This document shows, piece after piece, positions 852 through 48,100 of a stretch of DNA of 64,000 bases. How positions within the stretch are numbered: the first letter of the stretch is position 1; every line of letters starts with the position of its first letter. The notes under the pieces were generated by a model. That model was not told the origin of the DNA. It saw nothing but the letters and a program-made list of their open reading frames with translations, and searched no databases. This stretch comes from Bolinopsis microptera. Taxonomy: Eukaryota; Ctenophora; Tentaculata; Lobata; Bolinopsidae. The stretch spans positions 12,339,113-12,403,112 of the forward strand of contig NC_087081.1 of the NCBI RefSeq assembly GCF_026151205.1, in the 5' to 3' direction. Both the position numbers and the translations under genes were made by a program.

Positions 852-1480
852 ATGGCAGATCTCCCACCAGCCCCACAGCTTACCGGTACACTCTTAAATA
901 TTTACCTGTGCTAAAATAGAAATCAGGGATCTTTTACAATCACTATTCCAATTACACTAAAATCAGTAATGTGCTGATTCTCTTGGTTGTCAGAGAAGAC
1001 AGTAATGGTTTTAATCAACTAATTTAAAATTCTACTGGTTTTGATTGGCTTATAATAATGAAGTTCTAATGATATTTAAAGAGTAAATGGAAACTCCACA
1101 TTTCAGGGTAGAGAACGGAGGGAACCACCTATCTCCGGTACTAGCACCTCACAACCTGACACCGAACAGTGTTCCCAGCAGTGAGCTCTACCCTGACTCC
1201 ACTCACTCTTCTTTTGATGGTAACTTACTTAGTCATTGACTACTCGTTACATATTTCAAAGTCTAGTCATCACAAAACCTATCATTAACTCATTGGTACA
1301 TTACTCTGTACACTGTCACTCACACGTGAGTGAGAGATCTTTACAGCGCAGATCTGAGCTGTTTATACGATAATTAATGATAGTACATGTTGTTATTTGG
1401 CAGCTCCTACAGTCTACACCATGAAACCTTTACGCACCTGCTCACTGATTAGAGCCAGTATTTGTAACATGTATTGGGAG
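852..1480 (+). CDS. Candidate alternative 5' exons of GRAMD1 (three exons)
   Basis: Three short open blocks fit together in phase: 852-885 (starts ATG, begins MADLPPAPQLT, ends phase 1 before GTACAC), 1112-1219 (acceptor GGGTAG, open throughout, ends phase 1 before GTAACT) and 1404-1480 (acceptor TTTGGCAG, ends phase 0 before GTAGAG). The joined peptide is Pro/Ser/Asn-rich with no known domain. Phase 0 at the end is what exon 9417, exon 12742 or the GRAM exon at 32643 need. The middle acceptor is poor, since the better AG six bases upstream would give an immediate stop. This is inference from phase and openness only, about 30 kb from the conserved exons. Confidence 0.3.
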
Positions 1481-3360
1481 GTAGAGATCAGGTACTGCAG
1501 AGCACCATACTGAGCTGCTGGTCCAGGGGGCGGTGTAGAGGTCCTAGCAGCTCATTAGTCTTCAAGTAGTAGTAGCCAGCTCAATGTACCATGTGTAGTG
1601 TGCTGAATGTTATAAGTGATACTTTGAACACTACATAATATATGTACTAAATAATTTGAGCAGACCATGGAGTCTAACAATGACCATTGGTAGAGGGAAC
1701 TAGTTACCAGGCCTTTTGACTGCACTGTTCCAGAATCCAGACCTTTTGACTGCACTGTTTCTGGCTTTTTCAGCTTACTTTTGTTTTCCAGATGTCTGCT
1801 TTCTAAGGGTTGGATGATGCATATTTTGTATAGTGTGTCCTCAAAGGCACCGGCTACATCGTGTTATCACAAGTTACAAATAGACGCGAGAGCTGGCTAC
1901 TAATTGCAGCGAAAGCTACGCTGACTAAACACTGAAAATAAAGCACCGATTTTGAAAGAACTGATGTATGAAAGTGGACGAAACTGTTTTGTAAACCGTA
2001 CAATTAATAATTCTTTCTTATAGAGTTATAGAAAGAATTATTAAACTAGTCTCATTTAGCATTGTTTGATCAGCTTTCCTGACAGAAAGACCTACCTAAT
2101 TGAAGAAAATCACTCGAGCTGCGCTACTCGCCAAATTTTCCGCACATTTGCCGCACATTAAGCAATTTGAGGCAAGTGCAGGATTGCACTTTTCGCAAAA
2201 TTTTGCCGCAGTTATATGTTGCCTCTGGTAATAATTAGTGCCAATCTACCTAATTAGCTAATAAGCGTCATAAGTGTCTCCTTATCAGTCAATATTGTTT
2301 ACTTGTTATGCTACATACATGGTACATCTTATAGATAAATAAGTAATACTGCCTAAGGAGTAAGGTTTATGATTCAAGGGATAATACTATAATATCCGGT
2401 AATAAAGACTAGGTAGGACAAGTGAAACTACCGTTTAGGAGGAAACGCGAGCTTTCAGTGTGCTACTACCAGATACTATCCCTTGAATCATTATCTTATC
2501 ATGAGACTGATAAACAGCAAACCTGGCCAGGATCTCATATGCCTAAGGTTTAGTATTAGTGCTTAGTTTTAAATTTCACGTCTGTTCGTTTTATGTCTTG
2601 CAAGGCTAAAGTTATGTATGAAATAGGTGAGTTTGATACTGGGGAGTAGGGAGGGGGGGGGGGGGGGGGGGGGGAAGGAGGAGGGGTGCAACTTACTGTG
2701 GTGAAAATTGTCAGACACCAAACCATTAAAATTCAATAAATAAATTGTTAAATGTGTTTTTGAGATTACAATTTACTAGAGAGGATGGAGCGTTCTGAGT
2801 GCCTGCTCTGAGTGCCCCTGTGTATTATTCTATCTGGTCAGTTTCCGGTAAGAGTCCTGGCAGTGGTTATATAATGGGATACATACGCAGTATTATTGGA
2901 GTATTATAATGTGTCGTAGTCTGGTAATAAAGTGGAATAGTTGGCCCTTTTTGTGAATACCTAGTAAACCTGGAATATCAATACATGTTCTGCCTACATT
3001 GACGTACAAACAATGTGCATAACTACAATATTAGTGTTACCACTTACTATGGTAACAGCAGCTAGATTGGTGTTCCTGTGGCGACAACACCTTAATCTTA
3101 GAATCTGCTAGTTCTGACAAGTTCAACTCTTTAAAGTCACCTCAAGATTTATACTCTTAGTGTTCAAGATGTAGACTGTAGAGCACCACTCCATGATACT
3201 CATACACTATCAAACGTTATAACACCTAACTCAATACTTCATTTCTACCAACTGGTAGTAACACTTCCAGTCACCTAGGTTCTGTGTTTACATTGGTCTA
3301 TATTCTGGTGTCAGAAGTGGTTGCCATGGTAATCGGTACATTATTTAGTACATTGATCAA
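1481..3360. other. Non-coding intronic or intergenic stretch
   Basis: No gene seen. It contains a G homopolymer of about 25 bases near 2650 and a short block at 2180-2229 (GGATTGCACTTTT, then TTATATGTTGCCTCTG) that recurs near 23170-23214, marking a dispersed repeat. Confidence 0.5.
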
Positions 3361-5115: not shown

Positions 5116-5119
5116 GCGT

Positions 5120-14465: not shown

Positions 14466-14860
14466 ATGCCTAAGAGGTCCTCATCTCGATCAAAGTTGAA
14501 GAGTCTCAAAAAATCTCTCTCCTTCATCTCTCTGACTTCCAACGATTCGCGCTCCAATGATTCGCACTCTAGCGGGGACTCTAATGTGAACCTCGAAAAT
14601 GTCCCTGAAAGGTAATATGATACTCAATTATTACTGAAGTTTTAGGTTCAGCCAACTTCCACATCAGTACCTTTCAAATAAGTGTCTGGTTATCATGGTC
14701 AGGTACTTACACTAATTTGTTGATTATCATCCCTTATCTTTCTCTTAGAGAAGAATGTGATCCCGGTAACTCTGAAGTTAGAGACTCCCCACCACAAGAA
14801 TCAGACTATAATTCTCTACCAACTACTCCTAACTGGGCACCTACTGGGTTTTACGAGGAG
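14466..14860 (+). CDS. Alternative first and second exons of GRAMD1
   Basis: Exon 14466-14611 starts with ATG preceded by an in-frame stop, encodes MPKRSSSRSKLKSLKKSLSF and further Ser/Asn-rich sequence, and ends phase 2 before GTAATA. Exon 14749-14860 follows TTTCTCTTAG, restores the frame (GAA AG|A), encodes Pro/Ser/Glu-rich sequence ending TPNWAPTGFYEE, and ends phase 0 before GTTTGT. The basic, Ser-rich leader followed by an acidic segment resembles the disordered N-termini of GRAMD1 proteins. The phase-2 end of the first exon also fits the acceptor at 23844. The GC-rich, CpG-bearing block at 13420-13510 may be its upstream region. Confidence 0.5.
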
Positions 14861-19839: not shown

Positions 19840-20415
19840 ATGTCGGCAGATGATGCAGATGACGAGGAGCGGTTCACGTTTGAGGAGTATATAGATATGA
19901 TCAGAGAGCGCAGTAATGAGAGTCTTATAGATGATATCGATAAGACTTCAACTCTGAGTAACTGGGCTGCAGTAACCACCAGCACGTGCAACAGCACGTG
20001 CACTAGCGCGTGTAATAGCTCATGTAATAGCGCAGGCAACAGCACGTGCAACAGTACGACTAACAGTACAGGCTCCTCCAAAGAAGGGCGCGCCAGCAGC
20101 ACGTCACCCAACTTACTGGAAGGTGAGGAGTCGCAGGATCCGGTGGAGAAGAGAATCCTCTTCAAACAGCAGATGAGTGAGGAGATACATGAGAGTGAGT
20201 TGGATTCTAAAGAGAAGCTGGAAGTGAACGACAAGATAGAGCCCCAGCTACCACCCGCTCATGTCACGCATTGTAAGAAGAGAAAGAAGGGAAATAGGAA
20301 GATAAGGAAAAAGAGTTTAGAGACTCTCACTCTCCTCGGCAACTCGGTTTGTTATATGCTGCCTGTTATTGCCATGGTAACAAGGTTAATTACTATATGT
20401 TCGATCTTCTTGTAG
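19840..20415 (+). CDS. 191-codon ORF, acidic then basic, with hydrophobic C-terminus
   Basis: ATG at 19840 is preceded in frame by TAG. The product starts strongly acidic (MSADDADDEERFTFEEY). It has a Cys/Asn/Ser/Thr repeat (STCNSTCTSACNSSCNS), then Glu/Lys-rich sequence, a basic patch (KKRKKGNRKIRKK), and a hydrophobic end (LLGNSVCYMLPVIAMVTR...) that could be a tail anchor. Alternatively the ORF is another GRAMD1 first exon. A possible donor GTAACA after codon 179 (20376) is in phase 0 and matches the acceptor at 32643, in which case the hydrophobic end is partly intron. I do not recognise homologs. Confidence 0.45.
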   Translation: MSADDADDEERFTFEEYIDMIRERSNESLIDDIDKTSTLSNWAAVTTSTCNSTCTSACNSSCNSAGNSTCNSTTNSTGSSKEGRASSTSPNLLEGEESQDPVEKRILFKQQMSEEIHESELDSKEKLEVNDKIEPQLPPAHVTHCKKRKKGNRKIRKKSLETLTLLGNSVCYMLPVIAMVTRLITICSIFL

Positions 20416-20741: not shown

Positions 20742-22760
20742 ATGGAACTATCCTCAGACCGCCATAGAAACGGCGTATCTTTACTCCGCCAAATTTTCAC
20801 AACCCACCGGAACCTATTTTCTGTGACCACGCCGCGCCGCGCACCTCAACAAGACCTACAAGACAACTTTACTGACTGGTACTACAAGTGGGTGATAAGA
20901 GAACAAGCATTATCAGCAGCTAGTTGTAATATACCCTGGAGATTGGTCTGTGGGTTGGAGAACTATCAGGACCTAGACGAGGAGTTGTGGGGGTATAACA
21001 GTGAGGAGGAGGAACTGTGGCAGGAGATAGGGAGAAGGTACGAGGATACAGGGTTACCTGACTTGGTTAGGAGGGGTTTTAGAGACTGTTCGGGGAGGAG
21101 TTTCAGGGAGGTACAATCTGAGGAGGTACAATCCGAGAAGACACAACCTGTGAGGGTTGAGTCAGTTTATCAGGCTGATTCAGTGACCTATACATTTCAC
21201 CAAGGTTCTACAAATAGTATTACCGTCACGACTAATAATATTCAACCTTCTGAAGAGTTTTTTTCAGGTCAAATATTGACTGGTGTCAATAATTCTGAGA
21301 ACTCAGATCAGACTTCTAGATTAGTTTCATTGCAGCGTTATAGTAGTGTGCTGAGTGAGGAGGAAATTAGCTGTTTTACAGACACTGAATCTACTGAAGA
21401 AAGTGAGTCCTACTCCTACTCCTATTTTTACTCAGACTCGGATTCAGACTTAGAATCTAACTCAGATTCAGACTCAGATTCAGACTTAGATTCAGACTCA
21501 GATTCAGACTCAGATTCAGACTACACTTCCAGCTCCTTCTCAGATCCCCATATTAACCTAAGTTTATCTACTGTCGAGGAGAAGCCTTCAGTAAAGATCT
21601 CACCTGATCATCAGACCCTTGTTGAAACAGAGAACACATCAAGCGAACACTTCAACCTTTCTGACGGCCGACAGTCATTCTCCAGTTCAAACTTCTCAGC
21701 TGACCAACTATCTCTGTATAATATAGAGTCTTTAGCAAGAAGCATCAGAAACTCTTTACCTCGCAAAAGAATACCATCCCTATCTGCCAGTTGCTCAGCT
21801 AACAAACACAAACCTGACAAATCAGAACCATCCTTTAAGATAAAACTACCTAAAATAAAGCTTTCTAAAAGCAGAAGTGAATCCAAAGACCACAACCAAT
21901 CATCTTCCGAAAGACTGATCACAATACCCACTTTATCAGTTACCGAGTTTCAAAATAATCCAGATTCAGATATATCAGGTAGCTTTGAACGGCTTGAACC
22001 CGCAAGGCGTCCTATTAAGAGACGGTGTCGGCACAACTCTTACTACGAGCAGAATCTCAGACCTCTTTTAGACACGAGACTTATCCGGACACCGTCCCCT
22101 TACTCGGATAGACCTTTCCGAACACCGTCCCCTTATTCGGACAGACATAATATTAGGACATCGACTCTTTACACAGACAGAAATATTCGGACACCTTCTC
22201 CGTACTCGACAAATAAATCAGGGAGGGAGGAGACCGTTGAGTACGTGTTCTTGTTGAATCAGGGAGTAGTAGAGAGAGGTGGGGGAGTAAGGAGAGGGAA
22301 CAGTGAGGAGGACATAACTCTCCCTAGATCTGCAGAGGAGGACATAACTCTCCCTAGATCTGCAGAGGAGGACATAACTCTCCCTAGATCTGCAGAGGAG
22401 GACATAACTCTCCCTAGATCTGCAGAGGAGGACATAACTCTCCCTAGATCTGCAGAGGACAACATAACTCTCCCTAGATCTGCAGAGGAGGACATAACTC
22501 TCCCTAGATCTGCAGAGGAGAACATAACTCTCCCTGGATCTGCAGAGGAGAACATAACTCTCCCTAGATCTGCAGAGGACAACATAACTCTCCCTAGATC
22601 TGCAGAGGAGGACAGAACTCTTCCTAGATCTGCAGAGGAGAACATAACTCTCCCTGGATCTGCAGAGGAGAACATAACTCTCCCTGGATCTGCAGAGGAG
22701 AACATAACTCTCCCTACATCTGTAGAGGAGGACATAACTCTCCCTGGATCTGTGGGGTAG
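20742..22760 (+). CDS. 672-aa low-complexity protein with decapeptide repeats, unrecognised
   Basis: The longest open frame in the window that is not a known family, opening at ATG 20742. Residues about 1-110 look globular and aromatic-rich (DNFTDWYYKWVIREQ, then acidic EEELWQEIGRRYEDT). A Ser/Tyr then Asp-Ser tract lies near residues 223-263. Near 445-490 are four TPSPYSDR-like repeats with SP/TP sites, and from about 522 to 671 fifteen decapeptides of the type EEDITLPRSA. It ends at TAG, and the first exon at 22798 starts 37 bases further on. Codon-consistent variation (D/N, R/G) within the repeats suggests a translated sequence. I do not know its function. It could be an independent gene in the GRAMD1 intron or a long 5' exon whose donor I cannot see. 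It starts here because upstream in-frame sequence lacks an ATG. Confidence 0.55.
   Translation: MELSSDRHRNGVSLLRQIFTTHRNLFSVTTPRRAPQQDLQDNFTDWYYKWVIREQALSAASCNIPWRLVCGLENYQDLDEELWGYNSEEEELWQEIGRRYEDTGLPDLVRRGFRDCSGRSFREVQSEEVQSEKTQPVRVESVYQADSVTYTFHQGSTNSITVTTNNIQPSEEFFSGQILTGVNNSENSDQTSRLVSLQRYSSVLSEEEISCFTDTESTEESESYSYSYFYSDSDSDLESNSDSDSDSDLDSDSDSDSDSDYTSSSFSDPHINLSLSTVEEKPSVKISPDHQTLVETENTSSEHFNLSDGRQSFSSSNFSADQLSLYNIESLARSIRNSLPRKRIPSLSASCSANKHKPDKSEPSFKIKLPKIKLSKSRSESKDHNQSSSERLITIPTLSVTEFQNNPDSDISGSFERLEPARRPIKRRCRHNSYYEQNLRPLLDTRLIRTPSPYSDRPFRTPSPYSDRHNIRTSTLYTDRNIRTPSPYSTNKSGREETVEYVFLLNQGVVERGGGVRRGNSEEDITLPRSAEEDITLPRSAEEDITLPRSAEEDITLPRSAEEDITLPRSAEDNITLPRSAEEDITLPRSAEENITLPGSAEENITLPRSAEDNITLPRSAEEDRTLPRSAEENITLPGSAEENITLPGSAEENITLPTSVEEDITLPGSVG
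22305..22754 (+). repeat. 30-bp coding minisatellite, 15 units
   Basis: Fifteen units of exactly 30 bp (core CATAACTCTCCCTAGATCTG) keep the frame of the 672-aa ORF. Differences are single substitutions, mostly in the first codons (GAG/GAC/AAC) and the AGA/GGA codon. Reverse-strand open frames over the same bases arise from the repeat and are not genes. Confidence 0.97.
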
Positions 22761-23850: not shown

Positions 23851-24078
23851 ATGAGCAGTCCGTCATCTCGCTCCTCTCTCTCTGGAGCTTCCAGAAGGTA
23901 CACACCCAGTGTTAGCCATGATGTTAACAGTGATGTTAACATAAAGGTTAACAGTGGTGTTAACCTGGAGGTTAACAATGGGTTTAGTGACCACAAGGCT
24001 CTGTGGGGTTCTGTAACCAACCTGGTGTCCACTGGAGCTAACAGAGTCGCTGAAACTGCCAACAGAGTTAAAGATGAG
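23851..24078 (+). CDS. Alternative 5' exon of GRAMD1
   Basis: From ATG 23851 the block is open for 76 codons (MSSPSSRSSLSGASRRYTPS, then a VN/DVN repeat of about five units, then VTNLVSTGANRVAETANRVK) and ends phase 0 before GTAATT. The GTTAACA-type tandem underlies the VN repeat. An acceptor (TTTGTGTAG) at 23843 would accept phase 2, as provided by exon 14466-14611, so the block may be a first or internal exon. A TCACGTGA box lies at about 23523. The last 20 residues look amphipathic. Confidence 0.5.
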
Positions 24079-25186: not shown

Positions 25187-25714
25187 ATGGACGCCAGCAC
25201 TCCTAGTTGTTCCAAGATGAGTGTGTCGCGCGACAAGAAGAAACAGGAGTCGCAGAAGCCGCGACACATGAAAGTGCCTGAGAGAGGGTCGCGGAGTCTA
25301 GAGAACTCGCCCCGACCGCCCCGCGTACAGTTGAGACAATCTACCAGTGTTGGTGAAGACACGAGATCAGGATCACTACCTCTTCAGAGACCATCTAATC
25401 TGGGTTTAGGTGGATCTCCCGCTCTCTCCCCCACTTCCCCCATGCTTTCATCCACCTCTCCGATTGTATCTCCTACCTCTCCAGCTCTACCCAACGTGAC
25501 CCTCCCTCACCAGAGTATGCCCCAGCGCAGCTCCACAGGCCCTAGCATAGAGCCATTCTCTTCTTCACACAGCATAGTTAGGAGTAAAAGTGCTGAGTTT
25601 GTGAGAGGTCGAAGTGCCACCTGTCCTCCCCTTACCTCTCAGCGCTCTCATATCACCACTCAGCGTGGTACTCCTGACTCATTTGACAACTGGCTAAAGT
25701 CTGCTAAACATGCG
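25187..25714 (+). CDS. GRAMD1: Main candidate first exon of GRAMD1
   Basis: ATG 25187 opens 176 codons that end exactly in phase 0 at a consensus donor GTGAGT. The peptide begins MDASTPSCSKMSVSRDKKK, is basic and then Ser/Pro-rich (SPTSPMLSSTSPIVSPTSPA), and ends FDNWLKSAKHA. Spliced to 32643 it gives a 722-aa protein, close to vertebrate GRAMD1A/B (about 720-740 aa), which also start with a long disordered Ser/Pro leader before GRAM. Many SP/TP sites suggest phosphorylation. The join is inferred from phase, length and composition; an RNA read over 25714/32643 would settle it. Confidence 0.65.
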
Positions 25715-26356: not shown

Positions 26357-26389
<33 letters not shown>

Positions 26390-28889: not shown

Positions 28890-30494
28890 ATGAAGCTTTT
28901 CTTACTCACCATTGGCATTGTGCTCTTTGCTGATTACGGGGAGAGTAAAACCCCCAAACAGCCCAATATTGTCATGATATTGGCTGATGATATGGGATAC
29001 CAAGACGTTGGGTTTAGAGGATCTAACATTCTAACACCCAACATTGACAAGTTCGCAAAACAGGGAGTTATTCTTGAGAACCACTACGTGATGCCCCAGT
29101 GTTCACCAACAAGAGCATCCCTTATGTCAGGCCGCTATGCTATGAGGACTGGGTTCTGGAAGGGCAACATAATACCCAACGAGGAGTGGGGCCTGAGACT
29201 GAACGAAACCCTTCTGCCAGAGATGCTGAAGAGGAATGGATATGCAACACATGGGATAGGAAAGTGGCACGCTGGTATGTACACTTGGGATCATACTCCA
29301 GCCAAAAGAGGTTTTGATACTTTCTTTGGGCTCTACCTCGGAGCTCAAGGATACCGCAGCCACAAAAGATCAGGTCATGTAGACCTGAGAGAGGATTACC
29401 ACGACAAGGATGGTAAATTTGTTGATGACATTAAATTTGACTTGGAAGGGAAGTATAGCACCTATCTCTACACAGATAGAGCTGTGGAGAAGATTGAAAC
29501 AAGGGACAAGACAAAGCCTCTCTTCTTGTATCTATCCTACACTGCACCACATTCTCCAAATGATGCCCCTGATGACGAAGTCAAAAGGTTTGCCTCACAA
29601 ATTCCTAGCAGCCCAAAACAGAGAAGGAAATATGCAACACAGATCTCCATTATGGATGAAGGTATTGGTAAGGTGATGAAGACTCTAGAAAACGAGAACA
29701 TGCTAGATAACACTATAATTGTGTTCACAGCAGACAACGGTGCTTTCTACGGAAAAAAAGGCAGTAACTTCCCACTGAGAGGTGGAAAGCTGTCTCTGTT
29801 CGAGGGAGGAGTAAGGGCAGTCTCATTCATAAATAGTCCTCTTCTTAATACGACTGGTTATACTAACACCAACCTTCATCACGTGACAGATTGGTATGCA
29901 ACATTCCAGAAAATGGCGGGAGATCAGCCCGAGAAATACAGTAAACCACAGTTACCTTTAGATGGGGTGGATATCTGGGAATCTGTCAGCAACAACAAAC
30001 CTTGCAGAGATGAAGTGCTCATGAACCTTCGAGATCACAAAATGATCCAGGACTCTTCAGAACATGAATTCCTTGTAAAGAGGGATGAATTTGACTTAGA
30101 GGAAGATTTCGGAGAGCTTGGGGACGATGAATTTCCTGATGATGATGCATGTGATTTCTTTGTAATCAGATGGAAAGACTGGAAACTATTTAAAGGAACA
30201 TACAAGGTTCAGGACTGGACAAATAAGAACAGTCTCTCAGATGCTAAGTTTGACCGCAGCGAGGATGTACTGACAGGAGGTGGAGGGACTGGGTCTGGAA
30301 TCAAACTCTTTGATTTGTCCAAAGATCCTAGGGAAGAGCACAACGTTGCAGACAAGCACCCTGATGTTGTGAAAAGCATCTTGGAGAAGCTACCAGGATA
30401 TATGAAGAATATGACTAAGATCAATAAAAGAACAAGGTCTAAGGAGGGAATGAAAGGTAATGCATGGGTTCCGTGGGTGGAAAATAAAAAATGA
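28890..30494 (+). CDS. ARSB-like: Secreted/lysosomal arylsulfatase, ARSB/ARSI/ARSJ-like, single exon
   Basis: A complete 534-aa sulfatase hydrolysing sulfate esters, by family probably of glycosaminoglycans or sulfated polysaccharides, in lysosome or outside the cell. Residues 1-19 are a signal peptide (MKLFLLTIGIVLFADYGES). Metal and catalytic residues are present: Asp33-Asp34 (LADDMG), Cys71 in CSPTRASLMSGR (formylglycine site, with Pro73 and Arg75), Lys125-His127 (GKWH), His221 (APHSP), Asp282-Asn283 (TADNG) and Lys300 (RGGK). KWHAGMY, RGFDTFFG and LFEGGVR match the ARSB branch. An acidic insert (about residues 398-421, DLEEDFGELGDDEFPDDD) is unusual. The length fits the family (about 530). 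It has no intron, although it lies in a region of long introns and probably within a GRAMD1 intron on the same strand, so retrocopy or lineage-specific intron loss is possible. A polyadenylation signal follows. Confidence 0.95.
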   Translation: MKLFLLTIGIVLFADYGESKTPKQPNIVMILADDMGYQDVGFRGSNILTPNIDKFAKQGVILENHYVMPQCSPTRASLMSGRYAMRTGFWKGNIIPNEEWGLRLNETLLPEMLKRNGYATHGIGKWHAGMYTWDHTPAKRGFDTFFGLYLGAQGYRSHKRSGHVDLREDYHDKDGKFVDDIKFDLEGKYSTYLYTDRAVEKIETRDKTKPLFLYLSYTAPHSPNDAPDDEVKRFASQIPSSPKQRRKYATQISIMDEGIGKVMKTLENENMLDNTIIVFTADNGAFYGKKGSNFPLRGGKLSLFEGGVRAVSFINSPLLNTTGYTNTNLHHVTDWYATFQKMAGDQPEKYSKPQLPLDGVDIWESVSNNKPCRDEVLMNLRDHKMIQDSSEHEFLVKRDEFDLEEDFGELGDDEFPDDDACDFFVIRWKDWKLFKGTYKVQDWTNKNSLSDAKFDRSEDVLTGGGGTGSGIKLFDLSKDPREEHNVADKHPDVVKSILEKLPGYMKNMTKINKRTRSKEGMKGNAWVPWVENKK

Positions 30495-32642: not shown

Positions 32643-34507
32643 ATGTTACCTAATACAAACCCCAAGAGTAGGGAGCACGACTTTCACAAGCTCTTCAAAT
32701 CCCTTCCCGAGGGGGAAACCCTCATACAAGGTCAGTAGTAATTATCTTATTTTAACTAATTACAAGGTCAGTAGTCATTATCTTATTTTAACTAATTACA
32801 AGGTCAGTAGTCATAATCTCATTAACTAATTACAAGGTCAGTAGTAATTATCTTATTTTAACTAATTACAAGGTCAGTAGTAATTATCTTATTTTAACTA
32901 ATTACAAGGTCAGTAATAATTATCTTATTAACTAATTACAATGTCAGTAGTAATTATCTTTTTTTAACTAATTACAAGGTCAGTAGTAATTATCTTATTT
33001 TAACTAATTACAAGGTCAGTAGTCATTATCTTATTTTAACTAATTACAAGGTCAGTAGTCATAATCTCATTAACTAATTACAAGGTCAGTAGTCATTATC
33101 TTATTTTAACTAATTACAAGGTCAGTAGTAATTATCTCATTAACTAATTACAAGGTCAGTAGTAATTATCTTATTAACTAATTACACGATCAGTAGTAAT
33201 TATCTTATTAACTAATTACAATGTTAGTAGTAATTATTTTATGAACTATTTATATTTGTTATATATCGTAGTTTACGCCAAGTTACTCGCACACGTTCTA
33301 TAGTATGTAATTAACTAATTAATTGTATCATTGTATAATTGATTGCTCCCCAGATTTCTCGTGTGCTTTGTTAAGAGATATACTAGTTCAAGGACGACTG
33401 TACGTGTCTCAGAACTGGTTCTGTTTTTATGCTAACATTCTCGGATGGGAAACTCTCGTGAGTTAATTTCATTTTCGTTAATTAGTTTTTCGTTCGTTTG
33501 TTAATAAAACAAATATTAATAAAACAAATATTTATTTTTACGGCACAATCAAACAATATCAATAACAAATAAATCATGGGAGGTTTGAAGAGGTTTCAAG
33601 TGCCGAAGGCCACTGCTTATCTTTAGGATTTGAGAGTGACCTGTGCTTGAAACCCCCTCAACCATCCACTACGTCAATATACTTGTTATACAAATTATAT
33701 AGAAAAATATAATAATCTAAAATTACTTATTGGTTTAGTTTGGTGACATAGGAGAGCCCAGTTGAGTTTTAGTTTAGGTTTAGGATTTAAATCATAGTTT
33801 AAAAGGTTAGCCATGTTTCATGGCAGAGAGAGATATCATGTGTGCAGAGCCGTACCGGATTTAGAATTTGAGATATAATATAAATTAGTTACCATGTATT
33901 AGGGTCATCTCGATTTTGGAGGGATAGCAAGTGCTTTTTAAGGTTAGATTTAATAATACCTGACGAGGCTGACAAGTCTGAATTCTTGGAAGTAAATAAA
34001 CGATAATTAAACGATAATTATCAGATAAATCGTACTATTATTTCCTGGTCTAACACGTTTCTTTGTTTTTCAGCTGACGATAGAAGTGAGCAGGATTACC
34101 TCAATTAAAAAAGAGAAAACAGCCCTAGTGATCAACAACGCTATCTCAATCTCTACAAACGAGGAGAAATACTTCTTCTCCAGTTTTATGTCACGTGACA
34201 GCGCGTATAATCACATGTGCGGTATCTGGAGACGACCAGTTTCAAGAGAGGTGAGTTTTTCCTCCCCCTCTTAATTCTTTCCTCCCTTTCTTTAAACCCC
34301 ATCCCTCATTCCCTCCTCAATCTTCAATTTTAATAATCTGTCTGTCAACCACATCCCCCGTCTCAGCTGGCAGCAGAAGTAGATGGACTCGAGCTGGAGG
34401 AGTCAGAACACGCAGAAGATAACTCAGATAGCTACATCTCAGAGGATGACGATGCATCCTCAGATATACAACAAGTCAACTCTTTTCCTCACCCTGCTCT
34501 TGGAATC
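32643..34507 (+). CDS. GRAMD1: GRAMD1/Aster core, GRAM-domain exons (4 exons)
   Basis: Exons 32643-32730, 33354-33457, 34074-34250 and 34367-34507, all with AG/GT borders and consistent phases (0-1-0-0-0). The peptide MLPNTNPKSREHDFHKLFKS, then LLRDILVQGRLYVSQNWFCF, then ISTNEEKYFFSSFMSRDSAY is the GRAM domain of GRAMD1A/B/C; the vertebrate form has DFRKLFKQLP, LQRDILLQGRLYLSENW and KHFFTSF. In the family, GRAM senses phosphatidylserine and accessible cholesterol in the plasma membrane and brings the ER-anchored protein to contact sites. The fourth exon is an acidic linker (SEHAEDNSDSYISEDDDASS). The exon at 32643 itself begins with ATG, so a short-leader start there is possible. Continues to 35594 and 45159. 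Confidence 0.93.
32728..33235 (+). repeat. Minisatellite overlapping a splice donor
   Basis: About 15 units of 32-36 bp (ACAAGGTCAGTAGTAATTAT followed by CTTATTTTAACTAATT). The first unit starts with the last bases of the first GRAM exon, so the real donor ACAAG|GTCAGT is copied about a dozen times into the intron. Read-through in frame gives Gln-Gly-Gln-stop, so use of any downstream copy would truncate the protein. Confidence 0.95.
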
Positions 34508-36696: not shown

Positions 36697-36799
36697 TACA
36701 CTGGTGGTTGAAAGTGGGTGTGCCCCTGAGGGCCCTCAGCTGACCAGTTCCCTGGAATCTACTACTACTACTACTACTACTACTACTGCATCACTATAA

Positions 36800-39020: not shown

Positions 39021-39027
39021 TATGAAC

Positions 39028-39177
39028 CAGGGACAAAAGGATTTCGCGATTATTTTGGCCAAAAATCGCGATACCGCGAATTTTAACAGACTATACATTA
39101 AACTATACATAAAATTTGTCGCAAATAATGGGAAAAATCGCGATTCCGTACATGCCGCGATTTCCTTTTGTCCCTGG
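39028..39177. mobile_element. 150-bp MITE with TATGAA target duplication
   Basis: Left end CCAGGGACAAAAGGATTTCG and right end CGATTTCCTTTTGTCCCTGG are inverted repeats differing by two bases. TATGAA occurs directly outside each end (39022-39027 and 39178-39183). The interior holds several TCGCGAT-like boxes and no ORF. This is a clean non-autonomous DNA transposon; the superfamily is uncertain. Confidence 0.85.
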
Positions 39178-39936
39178 TATGAACTCTCTCTCTCTCTCTC
39201 TCTCTCTCTGCAGTCCAAACAGACCCCAAACACTAACAGTCCCCCCTCCCCTAATAAGCTTAAGGTATAACATTACAGCGAATCTTCCAGGCTAATCCAA
39301 TTATGACGCTACTTAAATGCAGCTATAACATATTACACAGTAATGAGAGAGAGAGAGCAAGTCCCGTAACTCTTGCCGTTCTGCTCACGCAATTTTATGT
39401 AACATTTGTGGTACAAAACCATCAATTAAACCACTTACCATCGGCCGATTTAAAAAAAAATTTCCTATGGGCTTCATCAGAGTTTTGTCGACACTATACC
39501 GAAAAAATCAGTCCCGTAACTCTTACCGTTTTTTTTGTATAACCGACCGGAAATTACACACGGACAGACAGACAGACAGACACACACACACACACACACA
39601 CATTCTGGTGTTATTAAGGTGATAACGTATATATACGTTATACCCATAATTAAACATTCTCAACTTCCACATTATCTCATGTCACACATCGCTCCTTCAT
39701 CAAATCATTTGTTACACACCTGTAAGTGTGAGACGAGTGTGCAAACAATGAAATCACCGCAGCCCCAATTAAGAGTATTGCAATAGGCTGTAGTGTAGCG
39801 TTGATAAACAGTGACACGATAACTCTTCCTAGTTAACATTGCTCCTTTATAAAGTTTATCTTTGTTCCTTCCGTTATTATACTAGTTAGTTTGTGTGTAT
39901 GTCCGTTAGATCCTGAAAGTATCTAACCGTTACACA

Positions 39937-40131
39937 ATGAGAACCAGTACAAATCACCATGGTGACGCACTTGACTGGACACGTGGTCAGGTATCAGAAA
40001 GTGACAGTGAAGTTGAGGAGAGTATTTGGAGGAGTATAATCCCTAATAAAACTACCGAGAGTATTCTCAACAGTTTCCAACTCCCCACCTTTATAGAGCC
40101 TCCTCGCAGAAGAGCCCCTTCTAGATCTCCA
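39937..40131 (+). CDS. GRAMD1: Alternative first exon of GRAMD1 (skips GRAM)
   Basis: ATG 39937 opens 65 codons ending in phase 0 before GTGAGC. Peptide MRTSTNHHGDALDWTRGQVS, then acidic and Pro/Arg-rich (EPPRRRAPSRSP). A 17-bp block coding NHHGDA is identical in the first exon at 44303, which suggests duplication between leaders. The next in-phase acceptor is 45159, giving VASt+TM without GRAM. If unspliced it runs 12 more codons to TAA, so a tiny single-exon gene is a less likely alternative. Confidence 0.5.
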
Positions 40132-40335
40132 GTGAGCTCCTTTAACATGGACTATTGTTATGATTATTAAATATTAAGTTTTTATTTCTAAATTGATCAG
40201 TCTCCACTTCAAGGTTTGAAAATTTTACTTTATCAATTGAAAACGGGGAGAAGGGTAAATGCCAATCATATCCACTCCCGGCCATTCACTTTCTGTGATG
40301 TAAGCGGCAGATGCCAAAAACTTGTCTACACATTC

Positions 40336-40424
40336 CACGTGTCACAACAAAGTACCACGTGCTATAAAACAGTTGCTATGAACACACTCTGACTAGCACG
40401 TGACTAGCACGTGACAGTCACGTG
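40336..40424. promoter_or_regulatory. Five-fold CACGTG cluster
   Basis: CACGTG at 40336, 40356, 40397, 40408 and 40419, the last three as GCACGTGAC-type sites 11 bases (about one helical turn) apart. It lies between the first exons at 39937 and 41353. Confidence 0.5.
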
Positions 40425-40870
40425 TTATCTATTACTTCCTGGTAAATTCTGTAGTCGCTGTCTGCTCAGATTGTGCAGGCTTGCTTTTTGCTTTGTCGTG
40501 GTGTTAGCGCCAGTCTTTGTTCCTGTTAACCTCACACTTACATTTATACACTCAGTCCACTCAATTACAGTCTACTCAATTAACATTTTAAATTTCACCC
40601 TGAATATCTTATAATTATTTGTGTACTATTTTGAGATGGATTTAATTAACAGGGTGTATTTGAAGGGGTTTAAAGTTGGAAATTTTCAGTAATAAATAAT
40701 ACGGTATATATGCATACGGTATATATGGGATGTTAAGTTTGCTTTTATTATGTTTTAAAAGCAGTGTTATTAAACTTCAATTCATTAATATTATTATCTT
40801 TAATAATACCAAAAGAGCTTCTGATGTCCCCCTCATATTCAATTCTTTTAGAAAAGAGCTTCTGTTTTAT

Positions 40871-40985
40871 GTCACGTCAAACAAAATACAACTATCTAAT
40901 TGGTTAGTTTGTGTCACGTGACTAAAATACAGTTCCCTGATTGGCGAGTTTACATCACGTGCCCTCAATACAACTCGTTGATTGG
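40871..40985 (+). promoter_or_regulatory. Tandem CACGTG + ATTGG units
   Basis: Two to three degenerate units of about 45 bp repeat the order GTCACGTG, AAAATACA, ATTGG, TTT. CACGTG is at 40916 and 40957 and ATTGG at about 40899, 40945 and 40980. The motifs are better kept than the spacers. It precedes the first exon at 41353 by about 370 bases, with TTTTAAAGTATAA at 41007-41019 as a possible TATA-like site. Confidence 0.55.
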
Positions 40986-41352
40986 ATGTGTTCCAGCATT
41001 TCTCCTTTTAAAGTATAACCACGCTTCAACAATAAATAAGAAATGGTCCTATCCTCCATAGTGTTCCACGAGCGTCCTCCCGCGGATTGGTTGGTTTCTA
41101 TTGTTCTGACACTTCTTTTCTGGTGTTATAAGTTAGTATTAGGCTCTGGTGTTATTATTAGCTCTGAGTTCTGCTTGGTCCTCATTTACCTGATTCCTTG
41201 CCGTTGTCTCCCGTCCGATTCAATCACGTCAGATCTTACCCGCGTGACGGAGTAGCTGGTAGCACCACACTGTGTAGTGTGACGTGTGTACTGTGTAGTG
41301 TGTATAGACTATATAGACTATAGATCCAGCACAGTTGATTACCACACGTGAC

Positions 41353-41466
41353 ATGAAGAGACGAATACTTCTAGCTCAGGCTCACCAACATTCTAAATCT
41401 TTGGAGGATATACAGCTCACTGTTCACCAGAGATCAAGGATAAAAGTACCCTGGAAACTAAAGAAG
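41353..41466 (+). CDS. GRAMD1: Alternative first exon of GRAMD1 (skips GRAM)
   Basis: ATG 41353 opens 38 codons (MKRRILLAQAHQHSKSLEDI..., basic at both ends) ending in phase 0 before GTATTT. In phase with the VASt-block acceptor at 45159. It lies directly downstream of the tandem CACGTG/ATTGG promoter candidate. No homology. Confidence 0.5.
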
Positions 41467-41956
41467 GTATTTTAACTATCTTAGAAATTAATGTCCTTCA
41501 AAAATACTTTCAACAACTTTCTTTTAACCAGATTAAATCTACATTTACTGAGGCTTTGTGTAACATCACGCCATGTGTTTGACGTGTGTTAGACTCGTAC
41601 ATGTTGGCTGGTTAACTATTGATACATTTTAAACCTGATCTTTGTGTTGTTAACCTAATATTCAACAAACACGTACCATTGTTAGCAAAGTTCTGGTTAA
41701 CCACGTACCATCCTAAGCAAAGTGTTCTGGAAGATTAATTTCCCACTAGAAATATCAGTTTCTTAGTATCCGCCTGTCAGCTCGACTGATTTTATACTAC
41801 TTCCTTCACAGCCAGACTACAAATTAACATATGATGACATATTGTTATTCATGGGTTTACAAGTATTACATTACACACACCAGACCAGTTCCCTCAGGCT
41901 ACACTGTAATAGGGCCAGGTCTTCCTCCCCCAGGTGCATCACCTGACCAGCGCTGC

Positions 41957-42070
41957 TGTGCTCTGATTGGTTGATTTCCAGGTCACGTGACCAGCGCTCT
42001 GCTCTGATTGGTGGATTTCAGGGTCACGTGATCAGCACAGCACGGTGATTAGCCAGCTCACTTCACGTGA
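41957..42070 (+). promoter_or_regulatory. Duplicated CTGATTGG-GTCACGTGA unit
   Basis: Two adjacent units of about 41 bp (TGCTCTGATTGGTTGATTTC then CAGGTCACGTGACCAGC, and a near-identical second copy), plus a third CACGTG at 42063. They precede the first exon at 42613. Confidence 0.55.
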
Positions 42071-42612
42071 TGTGTTTATGTGGTCTCATGAGGAGTAGAG
42101 CCCCGTTCTTTCTCTTTATATTACAGTGTACTACACTACACACTATATACTTGTTATATTCAATGTGCTCGAATATTCTGTTCTTGCTCCGTGTTGTAGT
42201 TCCGTCTCATAGAGTTGTTCTCTGAGATGGAGTAGTATGTCTCAGAGTTTGTCTCAGAGTTTGTCTCTGAGTATGTCTCTGAGTTTGAGTAGTTACAGTT
42301 AGTAGTTGCAATAAAGTTTTATTTACAGTTATATCAGAGAGTACCTTCATGTGAGGACACTATGATAGTATAACTATATAATAGTTTTAACTAAAGTTGT
42401 AATATAACACCTATTTACACTCGAGTGAACTGTAGTCTTTGTTATCCTACTATCTCCCAGCTTATTTAACGGTCCCCTCACAGTCAGTGTTGTAGGCCCC
42501 AGTTCTTAATTAGTGTTTACGCCGTGTTGAAAATATCGCTCTCTTTATTGTTATATCTTGAAAGCTCCAGAAAGTTCTAGAATCTACCAGAAAAAGAGAC
42601 AACTTCTACAAG

Positions 42613-42690
42613 ATGTCTCGGTACAGACTGTCGGAAAGCAACTTGTCTACAGAATCCGCTCCTTTCCAAGACAGCTTCCATTTTATACAG
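42613..42690 (+). CDS. GRAMD1: Alternative first exon of GRAMD1 (skips GRAM)
   Basis: ATG 42613 opens 26 codons (MSRYRLSESNLSTESAPFQD...) ending in phase 0 before GTACTT. In phase with the acceptor at 45159. Downstream of the duplicated CTGATTGG/CACGTG unit. Confidence 0.5.
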
Positions 42691-43184
42691 GTACTTAACA
42701 GGTACTTTACAGGTAGTTTACAGGTACTTTACTCGGTATTCTACATAATATCACTCCAATATTATGATCTATACAGTTAACACTTCACCGGTTACCTCCC
42801 GAGTTTAAACCACATGTCTACAATACAACAGCATCTAAAGTAAATATTAATATAACAGTGTTACCACTCAGTACAGACTGTCCCTTCTACACCACAGAGA
42901 ACACACTGTATAATAATAGTAGTGTGCCAGTGGAGTAAATGTAATTCGTAAATTCGGAGGAGAACAAATATCTTTGAGTTACAAGGGTCTATTAGAGACC
43001 AGTATCTTCCAAATTATAACGATGTCTCTTCGTTTCGAGTTCTGATTACGCTGCCTCTCCAGGTCAAACTGTTACTCTCATATTCTCATTTCTCTTCTAG
43101 TAGTAGTTTGGATCTAGTTCAGTTTATATTTCTCATGTTCTTCTGTTGTGAGGTTATGAGGACTGGTTGTGGGGAGGGATTGTA

Positions 43185-43270
43185 TTACCACGTGTCAGGG
43201 TTCTTATCTGATTGAACACGATTCCCTCGTCACGTGCAAGAACACGAGCTAATCTCTCGTCACGTGCTAA
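43185..43270. promoter_or_regulatory. Three CACGTG boxes upstream of exon 44303
   Basis: CACGTG at about 43190, 43231 and 43260, the last two in CTCGTCACGTGC context, with a CTGATTGA box at about 43207. A further TCACGTGACACGT lies at about 44085, nearer the exon. Confidence 0.4.
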
Positions 43271-44302
43271 TCTCTGTTTTAATTCCAGCCTACTCTTATA
43301 TCATCTTACTGTAATACTGCTACTTCTTATCACCTACAGATGGTTTTAGATCACCTTGCATATTTATGCAGGGATACCTTTGATATTCATATTCAAATTT
43401 TTGTTTTCTTGAATACAATATTTTATATTACCAAGAATGTTAAATTTGGGACATCACACCTCCTAGGTTCTTAATAAAATATGTGTTTACAATTTACATC
43501 ACGTACAACACGTCGCGTACAACACGTCACTTACAACACTATGATTTAACTATTGTTGCGTAGTAACTCTGATACAATTTACTCGTCACCAATGATGTAA
43601 TTCCTTCTCCAGAGTTCTTGCTGTTTCTCATTTCTACTTTTTACTTTTCACTGTTTTATGTAACTCATCAGTCGTGCCGGGTGGTATTTCTGATCTTGTT
43701 TATTTCTTTATGACTGTTAATCTTTTATATACATTATATTTTGTTGTTGTTCTATATTTAAAAAAATTCAAGTTCATAGTTAAAAACGTATCTGTGTTGT
43801 TAAGAATAACTTCATATTTCTCATACTAATTTGGGTGGTGGGTGGTGGGTGCTGGGAGTGTAAGGGGAATGGTGTAAGGAGTATAGAACGTGATATTACT
43901 ATTAGAATGATATACCAGGTGGCGTGTTGCCAACTTATTGGTATTCTAATCTGCAGAGGAATTCAATATATCGGCCTGGTGCTAATCTACCTTCTGCAGC
44001 GGAATCAGATACCTTAAATTCCAGCATGTCTTCAAAATGGCATGATATTGATTTTCTTCTTATTTCCTTCATTCGTTTCACCTTCACGTGACACGTAGGC
44101 TCCATTTAAATGTTTTTTACTTCTTTTCTGTTTCGGCTGAATTTCTTCAAATAGGTGCCTAAATTGATAGTTGATATCTGAACTGCATCAGATTTTAATA
44201 AAGTGTAGATTTATCTAGCGTATAGTTTGTTTAGTATGTTTTTAGATTTAATAAAACCTAAAATTGCAACAGTCGGTGTTATAGTTTGTATTCATCAGAT
44301 TT

Positions 44303-44944
44303 ATGGTGTCGTTAAACAAAACGGAGAAATCTCGGACATCTTCTGATGCCTCTCGTCGCTCAAATGGTGTCTCCATAGAAGATGCCGTCACCAAAAATCG
44401 TGATGACGTCACTAAGAGACGACATGACGTCATCAAAAGGCGCCCTGTGAGCGAGGTTATAAAACAGACTGTCCCCTCGCGGCGATCTTCAGCTGAAATC
44501 ACTTCTTCCTCCAGTTTCTCCGGTAACAGCTCTAATCACCATGGTGACGCTTTCAGTTACCATAGTGACACCTCTACTTTCCCAAGATCAACATCTTTAG
44601 GCGTGAGACCCAAAACAGCTGGTGAGAAGTTAGTGAACAGCGACCTGAGACAGAGAACTGGCTCCCTCAAGATAGAGAAAGTGTTGAACAGAGAGCTGAG
44701 GGGTGGTTCTGTCAAGTTACCTCATGATCTGAGGAAGAAGAAGAAGAAACCAGTAATTAGTGGACCGCTGTATATCGAGCCAATAAACGGAAGGGAGTTT
44801 AAGAAGTCGCCTCCCTTCTCTAAGAGAGATCTTGGTAATCTTCCTATGAGACAAGAGTCATTCTCTGCCTTCCTAGAACAGGAAGTGTTCCTTAGTAGTG
44901 TCATGCTAGCTCAACATCAACAAAATAGAGAGCACCTCCGTGGG
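44303..44944 (+). CDS. GRAMD1: Long alternative first exon of GRAMD1 (skips GRAM)
   Basis: ATG 44303, with an in-frame TAG upstream, opens 214 codons ending in phase 0 at GTAAGG, directly before the VASt exon at 45159. The peptide is Ser/Arg-rich (SRTSSDASRRSNGVSIEDAV) with a DDVTKRRHDVIKRR repeat, a Lys run (RKKKKK) and a more ordered end (RQESFSAFLEQEVFLSSVML). It shares NHHGDA, coded by an identical 17-mer, with the leader at 39937. The upstream AG would need a phase that none of the core donors supply, so it is better read as a first exon than an internal one. Confidence 0.6.
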
Positions 44945-45158
44945 GTAAGGGAGTTTCTTGGACCTGTCTGTGTGTCTGTATGTATGTGTGTATGTGTGTC
45001 TGTATGTGTGTGTGTGTGTGTGTCTGTCATCCCAACAGGTGAAATTGAAATTCTGTTTAGAGAATATTCAATGTCTTACAGGAGTAGAACGTTTAACTGA
45101 TATGAATTTCAATGAATTCAGAATACCAGGATAATTCTGACCTTTATCTCATCTGCAG

Positions 45159-48100
45159 GTGCCCTCTGATCATGGACCACGCGCTACGGAAGCTATATCG
45201 TTTAATGAAGAGGATGACACGTGCGCTTGTGTGTCTCACTATGACAACGAACATCTTAACCAGGTAACCTCCCCTCCAAGTACCTAACATTATACCCCGC
45301 CCCATCTATAACTCCATATCATTTCCTCCCCCATGTATTTCATACTATGCCCTCCTTCGAGTTTTTGATTAAATATCCCCTCTTCCAAGTATTTTATACT
45401 AAGAAAATTGTTAGATATCCTTCCTAACCATCCTTCCTAAACTCAGGAGTTTGATCTCAGTATAGAGAAGCTGTATAAATCTCTATTCAATGACGAATCT
45501 GTAGTACAGTCCAAGATGAGAACCCTATTAAAAGCCGAGGACTACGAAGCTACCTCCTGGCACGACTCTGAAGAGGGGGCTAGCGAGCGGACACTAACTT
45601 ACCGTGTACCACTCAACGCTAACTTGGGTCCTAAATGGGCTGAGGTCATTGAAAAACAGGTGACTTGTGGGTGAAAATTAATGAACCAGTTTATTTTGTG
45701 ATTTAACATTTTAAATGCAGGAGCGAACCATGTTAAATGTGACATTTAAAAAGCTAGTTGTGATTGTGATGTTAACCAGCTCCCTCTATCCCAGGTGCTG
45801 ACTACAACCAGTGTAGCTGCTAAATGTTATGTTATAAACTGCGAAGTAACCAATCCCAACGTCCCGTACGGAGACAAGTTCAACATAGTGAAACGCTACT
45901 GTCTGACGCGCGGTAGAGACAACACTTGTAAACTCAGACTCACCAGTGATGTGCAGTACAAGAAGGGAGTCTGGGGCATGGTCAAATGTAAGTCAAACAC
46001 AAGGATATTGTTTATAAGGTACATGAAATTAGATCTAATTATATTATATTTCACAAGGTACGTTAAACCAGATAGCAAGGATATATTTAACAAGGATAGT
46101 AATAAAGTTAGGTGAATAACAAATAAAGCTGCCAACTGTATGACCAGTAGATAAGGTGACCAGGACACGCCCCAACTTGTCTCTTATCTGAAAGTATCAC
46201 TTCTAAACAACTCACAATCACACCATCTCTCAAATATAATATTCTTCTAAGTTAAACACTCCGTTCAGGTTAACTTCACATCACCTCACTCACCAGATCG
46301 TATCAATCTGACCATCAGTTCGCACTTCTCACTGGGCAGCTTGTGTTGGGTTTGTCACTCTCGTTGTGGGTGTGTTCGTGTTTATTTGTCTGCTTGCATT
46401 TCCTCCTAAACTTGCCAACTTGGTTTCGTTTTCCAACTGATTAGTCCTCTCTCGACTCATCTGGTTTTAAGTTACCTTATCTTAACAGATTGCTGGTGAT
46501 TTTATCAACCCTTGATATAGTGCCTGTGCTTATTATACATGATAATCTGTTTCTAAAGAAACTAGATCAATGTTATACTGGTTTTACAGTCTTTATTGCC
46601 GTCTTCCCCTCTTGTCTCTTGTTGCTAAAACAATGCAGTGAAAACGTAGTAGTTAGTTTTCTGTGAAAAAAGTTTGTTTGCCACAACACACTCTACAGTA
46701 ACTCACAGTGAAATGACCACAAGACCTACGAAAACTGAGCTTAACACAACAGTTCCTAAAACTGAGCTTACTAGAGCTGAGAAAGCTGAATTTCGGCGTG
46801 ATAAAATGGCACGTGACAAGCAGTTTAAACGAGCCAAGAAAGGTCACGTGACAGTTAGAAGGAGACCTCACTCTGACAATTACTTCAAGGGCCACATATA
46901 CGAGAGTAAGCATCAACAACAAAAAGCAACATGCTAGTACCCCCCCCCCCTCCCCCTAGTGCCTAGTATCCGGTTTCAGGCTGTTAATCATAGCAGGCGG
47001 TGTTATTATAATACAGATTGCTGGTTATTTGCTAGTAATAACAGTAGGTTAACAAATAACAGGATTATAGCAGGCTAATAACAATATATTTTTATAAGTC
47101 ACAATAATTCTCACCGTCAAATCATCATGTTTCGTACAATACATAATATATTTACATTGAAGTCTGTATAGTGTATATAACCACATTAACACGCCCTTAT
47201 TTCAGCTATAATAGAGAAGAACAGTAAAGAAGGAATAAAGGAGTACTGTGAAGATCTGTGTATGTGTCTTCAGGAAGAGAGCGCAGGACCGGGTATCAAG
47301 ATAAGGAAGTCAGCAGTTTCCGGAGGAGCTCACACCTCCGCCGCATCTACCAGACTCCCACGTGCACGGTCTCACGCCGCGCTCCCTGACAACCAGTCTC
47401 GCGCCACAACCGCTGTCTCTTTCGTTACTGACAACTACATTGCCTTCGTGCTTCTCATGTTAGTTCATTACAAATCCCAGTCTTAAGTGCTCTGTATTCA
47501 TAAATATTGTTATTGAACGATTATTTTTGAACTCATTGATGGTTGGTTATCTAGAACTGTGGTTTCTTTCTCCTAACTTTATTTCTCCTCAGGATGGCAG
47601 TGTTAATGGTGTTGAACCTGGTACTAGTCTACAGACTATCTTCTATCACCAGCAGCTGTAACAACCAGTTTGATATACTCAGCAGGTTTGTTTATATCAA
47701 TTAATTATGAACAGATTTAAGACTTATTATGAACCTTTTTAAAACTAACCATGAACTTATTATGAACTAATTAATAAATAATAACTAATTAGATACTAAA
47801 TATGAATTAATTACAGTTTACCGCAAAGCGAGGAGGGCAAGTCAGAGTGGATCAGGATACTATCTCAACAACAAGATCTCCACAAAAAAGAAATACAACG
47901 CTGGCAAGACGTCCTCAGGTAATTAAGTGAGATAAACAGATAATTATAGCTTTATAGTAAATAGTTAATTTAAGCTAATTCAATCATAAGGTTATAATAT
48001 GGTGAAGTGGTTAATTCTCGATATTTAACATGTTTAATAACCATCTACACTCTTCAGGTGGATTTCCAAGCTAGTATCTGAAGTGCACGGTTCTCTCGAA

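Follow-up and report, generated by a model that had tools for sequence, protein, structure and literature searches.

A GRAMD1/Aster-type gene of the comb jelly Bolinopsis microptera with probably one to three N-termini

Can one sterol-transfer gene be served by a dozen interchangeable first exons? The question is raised by a stretch of 64,000 nucleotides from the comb jelly Bolinopsis microptera (RefSeq assembly GCF_026151205.1, contig NC_087081.1, forward-strand positions 12,339,113 to 12,403,112), here called the window, in which a first-pass annotation had placed a GRAMD1 gene with about a dozen phase-matched leader exons, each with its own promoter. Here we report that the window holds one GRAMD1/Aster-type gene, which most likely has one to three N-termini. 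In the reading that we favour, with a probability of about 0.5, the core of the gene is accompanied by two small exons of symmetric phase (0-0), each of which may also be used as an extended first exon. The genome used for the analysis comprised 264.65 Mb in 232 contigs, with the window on contig C10, and splice sites were scored with matrices of generic values that had not been trained on this genome.

The core consists of 11 exons on the + strand (32643-48192; Table 1), which form one open frame of 523 amino acids (aa) when joined at consensus borders. The joined frame encodes, in this order, a GRAM domain (PF02893, 93.8 bits, 7.6e-27, residues 12-116), a VASt/ASTER domain (PF16016, 125.2 bits, 3.6e-36, residues 192-339) and one membrane helix of 19 residues (starting at residue 408, hydropathy peak 2.99). 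The top matches in the PDB were GRAMD1C/Aster-C (5e-27) and GRAMD1A (9e-27), and the Pfam and PDB matches together bear out the GRAMD1-like identity proposed earlier. A genome-wide search for VASt matched solely two exons in the window. Across the phase-1 joint of 45795-45987 with 47206, the protein reads MVKSIIEKN where solved GRAMD1 structures read LVKSLIEKN. The last three core exons are placed by frame, splice consensus and a putative resemblance to human GRAMD1 C-termini. Judged by its sequence, the gene is an ordinary comb-jelly member of a family whose proteins move cholesterol from one membrane to another. A further core acceptor in the first-pass annotation, 35594, exists as a site (score 2.1); the core is open without it, and an exon at this site was not sought by homology.

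A tandem array on the + strand (32725-33252, 36-bp unit, about 15 copies) starts in the last bases of exon a and duplicates the 5' splice site of that exon, so that AAGGTCAGTA occurs exactly 12 times. Use of a later copy as donor leads to an immediate in-frame stop; thus only the first copy is productive in frame.

The two proposed additional exons were recovered in a search of the full window, in which a symmetric open exon had to measure 30-400 bases and to score at least 5 at its acceptor as well as at its donor. The + strand contained three only, namely 25643-25714, the conserved GRAM exon 34074-34250, and 44882-44944; the - strand contained none. Forty Markov sequences averaged 0.17 such exons, with no sequence above 1, and 400 kb of strand from 20 other loci had none. 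The junctions that the first-pass annotation had singled out are in frame: 25714/32643 yields a protein of 720 aa (including the cassette 44882-44944), 44944/45159 one of 578 aa, and 46905/47206 one of 258 aa. The exon 25643-25714 encodes ...SFDNWLKSAKHA, directly before MLPNTNPKSREHDFHKLF. Human GRAMD1A has ...SWYSMLSPTYKQRNEDFRKLF at the position just ahead of GRAM, and a tryptophan shortly ahead of GRAM may be common to both proteins.

Both small exons look like ordinary internal exons, and the stretches upstream of them look like ATG-opened 5' extensions. The stop-to-stop frames around the ATGs at 44303 and 25187 span 271 and 200 codons, and that around a further ATG at 19840 spans 195; the longest + strand open reading frame (ORF) in 30 Markov windows had a mean of 129 and a maximum of 181 codons, so that all three are longer than expected by chance. 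Taken alone, the extensions retained the composition of disordered coding sequence (0/300 each against a null of window composition), and with a null matched to the base composition of each extension the values were also low (5/300 for 25187-25642, 6/300 for 44303-44881). In a search of the own genome with E up to 1, both blocks matched themselves only.

If this reading is correct, the main mRNA would run through the core exons (32643-48192), probably with the addition of 25643-25714, which would sit ahead of GRAM, and of 44882-44944, which would sit in the linker between GRAM and VASt. Transcripts starting at 25187 or 44303 would use the whole block as first exon, whether they arise from local transcription or receive a spliced leader at an acceptor close by (25171, 16 bases before 25187, score 2.0; 44299, 4 bases before 44303, score 1.9). 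The start at 25187 would give the full protein, and the start at 44303 a protein of 578 aa with VASt and the membrane helix, without GRAM; in both cases the N-terminus would be basic and disordered-looking. A leaderless start at 32643, where an ATG directly follows the acceptor, would be possible as well. All 5' ends and the use of the extensions are predictions here, as are the disorder of the N-termini (from composition only) and all function, here a role of the basic N-termini in membrane targeting. What the sequence shows directly is the core frame, the ORFs, including those that intervene, the strengths of the splice sites and the spliced-leader arrays.

Several observations weigh against this reading or parts of it. 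The threshold of 5 in the small-exon search was picked after the scores were known; a threshold of 4 yielded 4 exons on the + strand and 1 on the - strand, against 0.72 in Markov sequences and 1.28 per 64 kb in other loci. At a threshold of 3 the counts rose to 17 and 2; exons e and f were among the 17, as were many sites of one repeat. The initial 50 codons of both blocks were ordinary against their own composition (386/1000 for 25187, 81/1000 for 44303), which leaves their exact starts unsupported, and the first 100 codons of the 44303 block are background-like in synonymous choice. Three-base periodicity was not significant for 44303 (P 0.17), nor for four of the seven core exons tested, so that failing this test excludes nothing. 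Codon bias is too weak to confirm either block; synonymous choice in the core and in a neighbouring arylsulfatase gene carries about 0.12-0.15 bit per codon, and codon bias was dropped as a coding test in this genome. An acceptor of at least 1.5 lies within 50 bases before four of the seven coding-like blocks described below, and before 204 of 1069 background ATGs. Within the core, all donors of exon d are weak (-3.8; -1.2 at 34507) and the joint from GRAM to VASt is unproven; because of these poor splice sites, the continuity of the two domains rests on family architecture and phase, and the gene may alternatively encode a GRAM-only protein terminating at the stop after 34543. Finally, neither AATAAA nor ATTAAA occurs in the 1 kb past the core (48190-49200).

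The small exons would also fit a gene with one first exon, in which 23851-24078, 25643-25714 and 32643 are spliced consecutively. In such a gene 39910-40131 and 44882-44944 would serve as cassettes of the linker, and no start would be made at the ATGs 25187, 39937 and 44303, which would be there by coincidence. The phase-0 acceptors at 25643 (6.7), 44882 (6.0) and 39910 (0.3), the open joint 24078/25643/25714/32643 and the periodicity of 23851 and 39937 are in agreement with such an arrangement. It offers no explanation for the long extensions 25187-25642 and 44303-44881, which are open and composed like disordered coding sequence, and we consider it unlikely.

The larger set of leaders was compared with chance by counting ATG-opened blocks of at least 12 aa that end at a phase-0 donor with a score of at least 1 within positions 1-45158. 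All 13 ATGs and the AG acceptors 32643, 35594, 45159 and 47206 of the first-pass annotation lie where it had placed them. The + strand contained 23 blocks and the - strand 13, with 16.8 per strand in 19 other loci and 19.9±4.2 in 8 Markov sequences, and the set as a whole thus does not exceed chance. Seven of the 12 listed ATGs in this interval are among the 23, and 852, 6652, 14466, 19840 and 41353 have no qualifying donor of their own. An excess was present among blocks of at least 60 aa (8 on the + strand against 0.9±1.3 in Markov sequences, 1 on the - strand, 3.4 in other loci); its members are the arylsulfatase gene (twice), a 672-codon ORF (once), 23851, 25187, 39937, 44303 and 35998, the last of which had not been listed as a leader.

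The hydrophobic content of 14466, 19840, 23851, 25187, 39937, 44303 and 46713 was much lower than in random ORFs with the composition of the window (P at most 0.0014), and these seven are referred to as coding-like blocks; that of 852, 6652, 22798, 35238, 41353 and 42613 was like that of random ORFs (P 0.07 to 0.53). An enrichment in Ser, Arg and Asp was found for 6652 (P 0.0017) and 22798 (P 0.0027), with P 0.025 for 42613, and the description of all leaders as rich in these residues is untrue of 852, 35238, 41353 and 46713. Against a null of own base composition, 23851 was low (14/1000) and 14466, 19840, 39937 and 46713 were not (56, 62, 112 and 157 per 1000). Three-base periodicity was strong in 19840, 23851 and 39937 (0/300 each), present in 25187 (P 0.03) and not significant in 46713 (P 0.08), 14466 (P 0.15) and 44303; among 194 control ORFs, 5.7% fell below 0.05. 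Both 19840 and 23851 hold 12-bp repeats, which feed their periodicity signal. The phase fit held for five of the seven coding-like blocks (P about 0.045 in a hand-calculated binomial at 1/3 each, weaker if the share of phase 0 exceeds 1/3) and failed for 19840, whose strongest donor is phase 1, and 14466, whose only positive donor is phase 2.

The full set of at least ten interchangeable leader exons with own promoters, as first proposed, therefore has some of these results on its side: seven of the 13 blocks are hydrophobically distinct from random ORFs of the window average, two more are Ser/Arg/Asp-rich, five of seven phases fit, and 19840, 23851 and 39937 are periodic well beyond the controls. 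Against it stand the six hydrophobically indistinct blocks, the chance frequency of the short ones, the two coding-like blocks out of phase, the four of seven that fail the own-composition null, and a complete gene and a long ORF that intervene between leaders and core. We regard it as highly improbable. Since these blocks are about as frequent as in Markov sequences, short leaders are the expected background, and 852, 6652, 22798, 35238, 41353 and 42613 are most likely chance. One core with several N-termini keeps support at the level of sequence signals for 25187 and 44303, and not for a dozen leaders or for many promoters. If even these two extensions should prove unused, the locus would serve as a warning that ATG-to-donor blocks of at least about 12 codons arise by chance approximately every 2 kb.

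The intervening features, both inside the claimed leader region and both missed by the first-pass annotation, are the single-exon arylsulfatase gene and the 672-codon ORF (Table 1). The arylsulfatase gene has its own acceptor (28824, score 4.8) and AATAAA signals at 30598 and 30630; the genome has 64 Sulfatase matches, this gene among them, and its ORF is intact within 25714-32643, a putative host intron. The 672-codon ORF contains Ser-Asp repeats and had no Pfam family above the cut-off. Its first 516 codons gave one short match only elsewhere in the genome (E 0.0017) and no close second copy. Past its end, neither AATAAA nor ATTAAA was found in 22700-23900, and the supposed leader 22798 begins 38 bases past its stop. 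To reach the core, a transcript begun at 14466 or 19840 has to be spliced across the two, and one begun at 25187 across the arylsulfatase gene; the scheme first proposed thus requires nested genes, which makes a shared leader costlier. Under the favoured reading with extended first exons, the arylsulfatase gene, and perhaps the 672-codon ORF, would be nested in 5' introns, if such introns exist. In the ctenophore Hormiphora californensis, 2357 nested genes in 1654 hosts, many of them parallel to the host, have been counted (PMC8527503), so that such nesting is not impossible in ctenophores.

The separation of 25714 from 32643 by a whole gene with poly(A) signals also speaks for an alternative, an ordinary single-start gene whose mRNA begins at 32643 via a spliced leader. 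The 25187 and 44303 ORFs would then belong to other transcripts, the former to an upstream gene ending with the TAA at 25766-25768 and the latter to an independent gene or exon around 44 kb. The strong acceptor at 32643 (4.8) with an ATG immediately after it, the spliced-leader arrays in the genome (see below) and the own stop of the ORF 25166-25768 are consistent with this alternative. It is at odds with the strong donors at 25714 and 44944, which have the right phase for the next core acceptor, and with the strong small 0-0 exons that both blocks contain; other downstream partners of the two donors are not known and were not searched for. We consider a single start possible, if somewhat unlikely.

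The genome itself contains arrays of ctenophore-type spliced-leader genes. A search for the junction of leader and donor with at most 3 mismatches gave 83 matches in the genome and 0 in the reversed control; the matches are often tandem, on C3, C5 and C13. The leader exon ends in ...TTTCAACACTACTATATAACAAATAATTTGAG, followed by a GTAAG donor, and is similar to the Hormiphora leader given in PMC8527503. Five exact matches to the Hormiphora leader end cluster on C13, with a common leader exon, a tail and, in most, a GTAAG-type donor. With 1 mismatch allowed, the 14-base Hormiphora leader end was at chance level genome-wide (362, reversed control 366), as was a 10-base leader end in the window (9, with 10.3 expected); of these matches to the leader end, the exact cluster on C13 alone was informative. 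After the leader donor, a hairpin-like stretch is visible by eye; it was not folded. The leader arrays (L036-L040 and L046-L048, on C13, C5 and C3) have a repeat unit of about 590 bp on C3 and a longer one of about 860 bp on C5, and 5S rRNA genes lie inside the leader loci L046 (C5) and L038 (C13). Matches of SmY to leader loci were below the gathering score and were not used.

Where a spliced leader is in use, the 5' end is set by the acceptor and not by the promoter alone, and several 5' ends are not equivalent to several promoters. Of Hormiphora Iso-Seq reads, 56% carry the spliced leader (PMC8527503). Exon a, with its ATG directly after the acceptor, is suited to such entry, and spliced-leader entry into the GRAMD1 gene is thinkable from the acceptors and the arrays, not proven. 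That entry at several internal acceptors might make first exons of ordinary internal ones and so draw full-length, short GRAM-first and GRAM-less VASt proteins from one unit is a doubtful extension of this idea. If true, it would be a concrete case in which spliced-leader entry, and not promoter number, multiplies protein starts, and through a GRAM-less VASt protein with a basic tail, sterol transfer would become independent of the sensing of the plasma membrane, with no need for separate promoters. There is a parallel in the sma-9 gene of Caenorhabditis elegans, in which alternative trans-splicing within the gene yields a shorter transcript that presumably encodes a C-terminal protein (PMC2904332); that case concerns another gene and phylum and was shown by RNA work.

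Contrary to what had been claimed, alternative N-termini are not unusual for the family. Mouse Gramd1b has an upstream promoter and four extra exons, with the other first exon skipped, and Aster-B2 carries a disordered N-terminus of 229 aa where Aster-B1 has 49 aa; for Aster-B2, stronger recruitment to the plasma membrane is reported (PMC10866650). In the ctenophore gene, one GRAM-ASTER-helix core would likewise be joined to one of several disordered N-termini that differ widely in composition; the tails from 25187 (+13) and 44303 (+18) are basic, like that of Aster-B2, the longer of the mouse pair. Whereas the two mouse isoforms are backed by RNA, the ctenophore case is known from sequence alone, and the 44303 form would lose the GRAM domain that Aster-B2 retains. 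If true, the GRAM-less form would be a natural test of the contribution of the GRAM domain. If the extensions are used, alternative disordered Aster N-termini would occur in ctenophores and mammals, and would be old or have arisen twice.

The hybrid first/internal exon was reportedly defined in Fiszbein 2022. Such exons, which are internal in some transcripts and first in others, throughout the gene body, are described as frequent in human genes (PMC10256964). The human examples were identified from junction reads of tissues, unlike the two proposed here, which are predicted from a strong acceptor within an ATG-opened ORF. The locus is also like Hormiphora californensis, in which same-strand nested genes and a similar leader exon ending in TTTGAG occur (PMC8527503); for GRAMD1 itself, nesting and trans-splicing are putative. 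A table on promoter switching in PMC5470264 includes GRAMD1B, and the part of that paper considered contained nothing usable. No open-licence PubMed Central paper was found that joins the words GRAMD1 and ctenophore.

Table 1. Features of the window. Positions are counted from its first nucleotide; numbers after acceptor and donor are splice-site scores.
Feature	Positions	Strand	Remarks
Core exon a, first part of GRAM	32643..32730	+	ATG right at acceptor (4.8); donor AAG/GTCAGT
Core exon b, GRAM	33354..33457	+	
Core exon c, GRAM	34074..34250	+	0-0; acceptor 6.2, donor 8.0
Probable exon d, acidic post-GRAM segment	34367..34474	+	weak donor -3.8; alternative 34507, -1.2
Core exon e, linker ahead of VASt	45159..45263	+	0-0; acceptor 6.0, donor 3.8
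Core exon f, VASt first part	45447..45659	+	
Core exon g, VASt second part	45795..45987	+	phase-1 donor
Core exon h, post-VASt and membrane helix start	47206..47458	+	
Core exon i, remainder of membrane helix	47593..47685	+	borders from frame and splice consensus
Core exon j, C-terminal	47817..47918	+	borders from frame and splice consensus; weak acceptor -3.9
Core exon k, C-terminal, then stop	48058..48192	+	
Proposed internal 0-0 exon ahead of GRAM	25643..25714	+	24 aa, RSHITTQRGTPDSFDNWLKSAKHA; acceptor 6.7, donor 6.5
Proposed alternative first exon	25187..25714	+	25643-25714 extended upstream to an ATG; 176 aa, net charge +13
Proposed internal 0-0 cassette	44882..44944	+	21 aa; 3' end of 44303 block; acceptor 6.0, donor 5.4
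Proposed alternative first exon	44303..44944	+	44882-44944 extended upstream to an ATG; 214 aa, net charge +18
Possible first exon	23851..24078	+	76 aa; phase-0 donor 3.0; periodic 0/300; contains 12-bp repeat
Possible first exon or 0-0 linker cassette	39937..40131	+	phase-0 acceptor 39910 (0.3); periodic 0/300
Possible first exon of C-terminal fragment	46713..46905	+	258 aa; phase 1, joins 47206
ATG ORF longer than chance	19840..20122	+	strong phase-1 donor 20122 (7.5), no direct fit to 32643
Ser/Lys/Arg-rich ORF	14466..14612	+	49 aa; upstream acceptor 14425 (5.2); only positive donor phase 2
Complete single-exon arylsulfatase gene	28890..30494	+	Sulfatase 1.1e-55; between 25187 block and core
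672-codon ORF, own ATG and TAG	20742..22760	+	30-bp in-frame repeat (AEEDITLPRS) at the end, about 15 copies

Likenesses among the candidate blocks were followed up and set aside as signs of exon homology. The peptide NHHGDA, found in both the 39937 and the 44303 block with a score equalled in 39 of 20000 shuffles, reflects a repeated DNA motif instead, an identical 17-base stretch at 39952-39968 and 44534-44550 around the palindrome TCACCATGGTGA. The genome holds 11 copies of a 15-base part of this stretch, against 0 in the reversed control, and the stretch is perhaps a binding motif. Among 105 peptide pairs compared, one other, 25187/46713, reached 0.005 in 200 shuffles, a value that so many comparisons would produce by chance. 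A match of the 39937 block to contig C228 (E 0.001) was rejected as a paralog, being a noisy duplicate with indels and no conservation signal. This contig of 10.3 kb (L045) duplicates parts of 37802-41467 at about 69-72% identity with many indels, and looks like a noisy, uncorrected assembly copy of the locus.

An Rfam scan of the window returned no family. On the - strand, the window holds a long ORF (51906-53159), which by eye may encode a mariner-type transposase. Much of the genome sequence that was sampled consists, by eye, of transposons and simple repeats.

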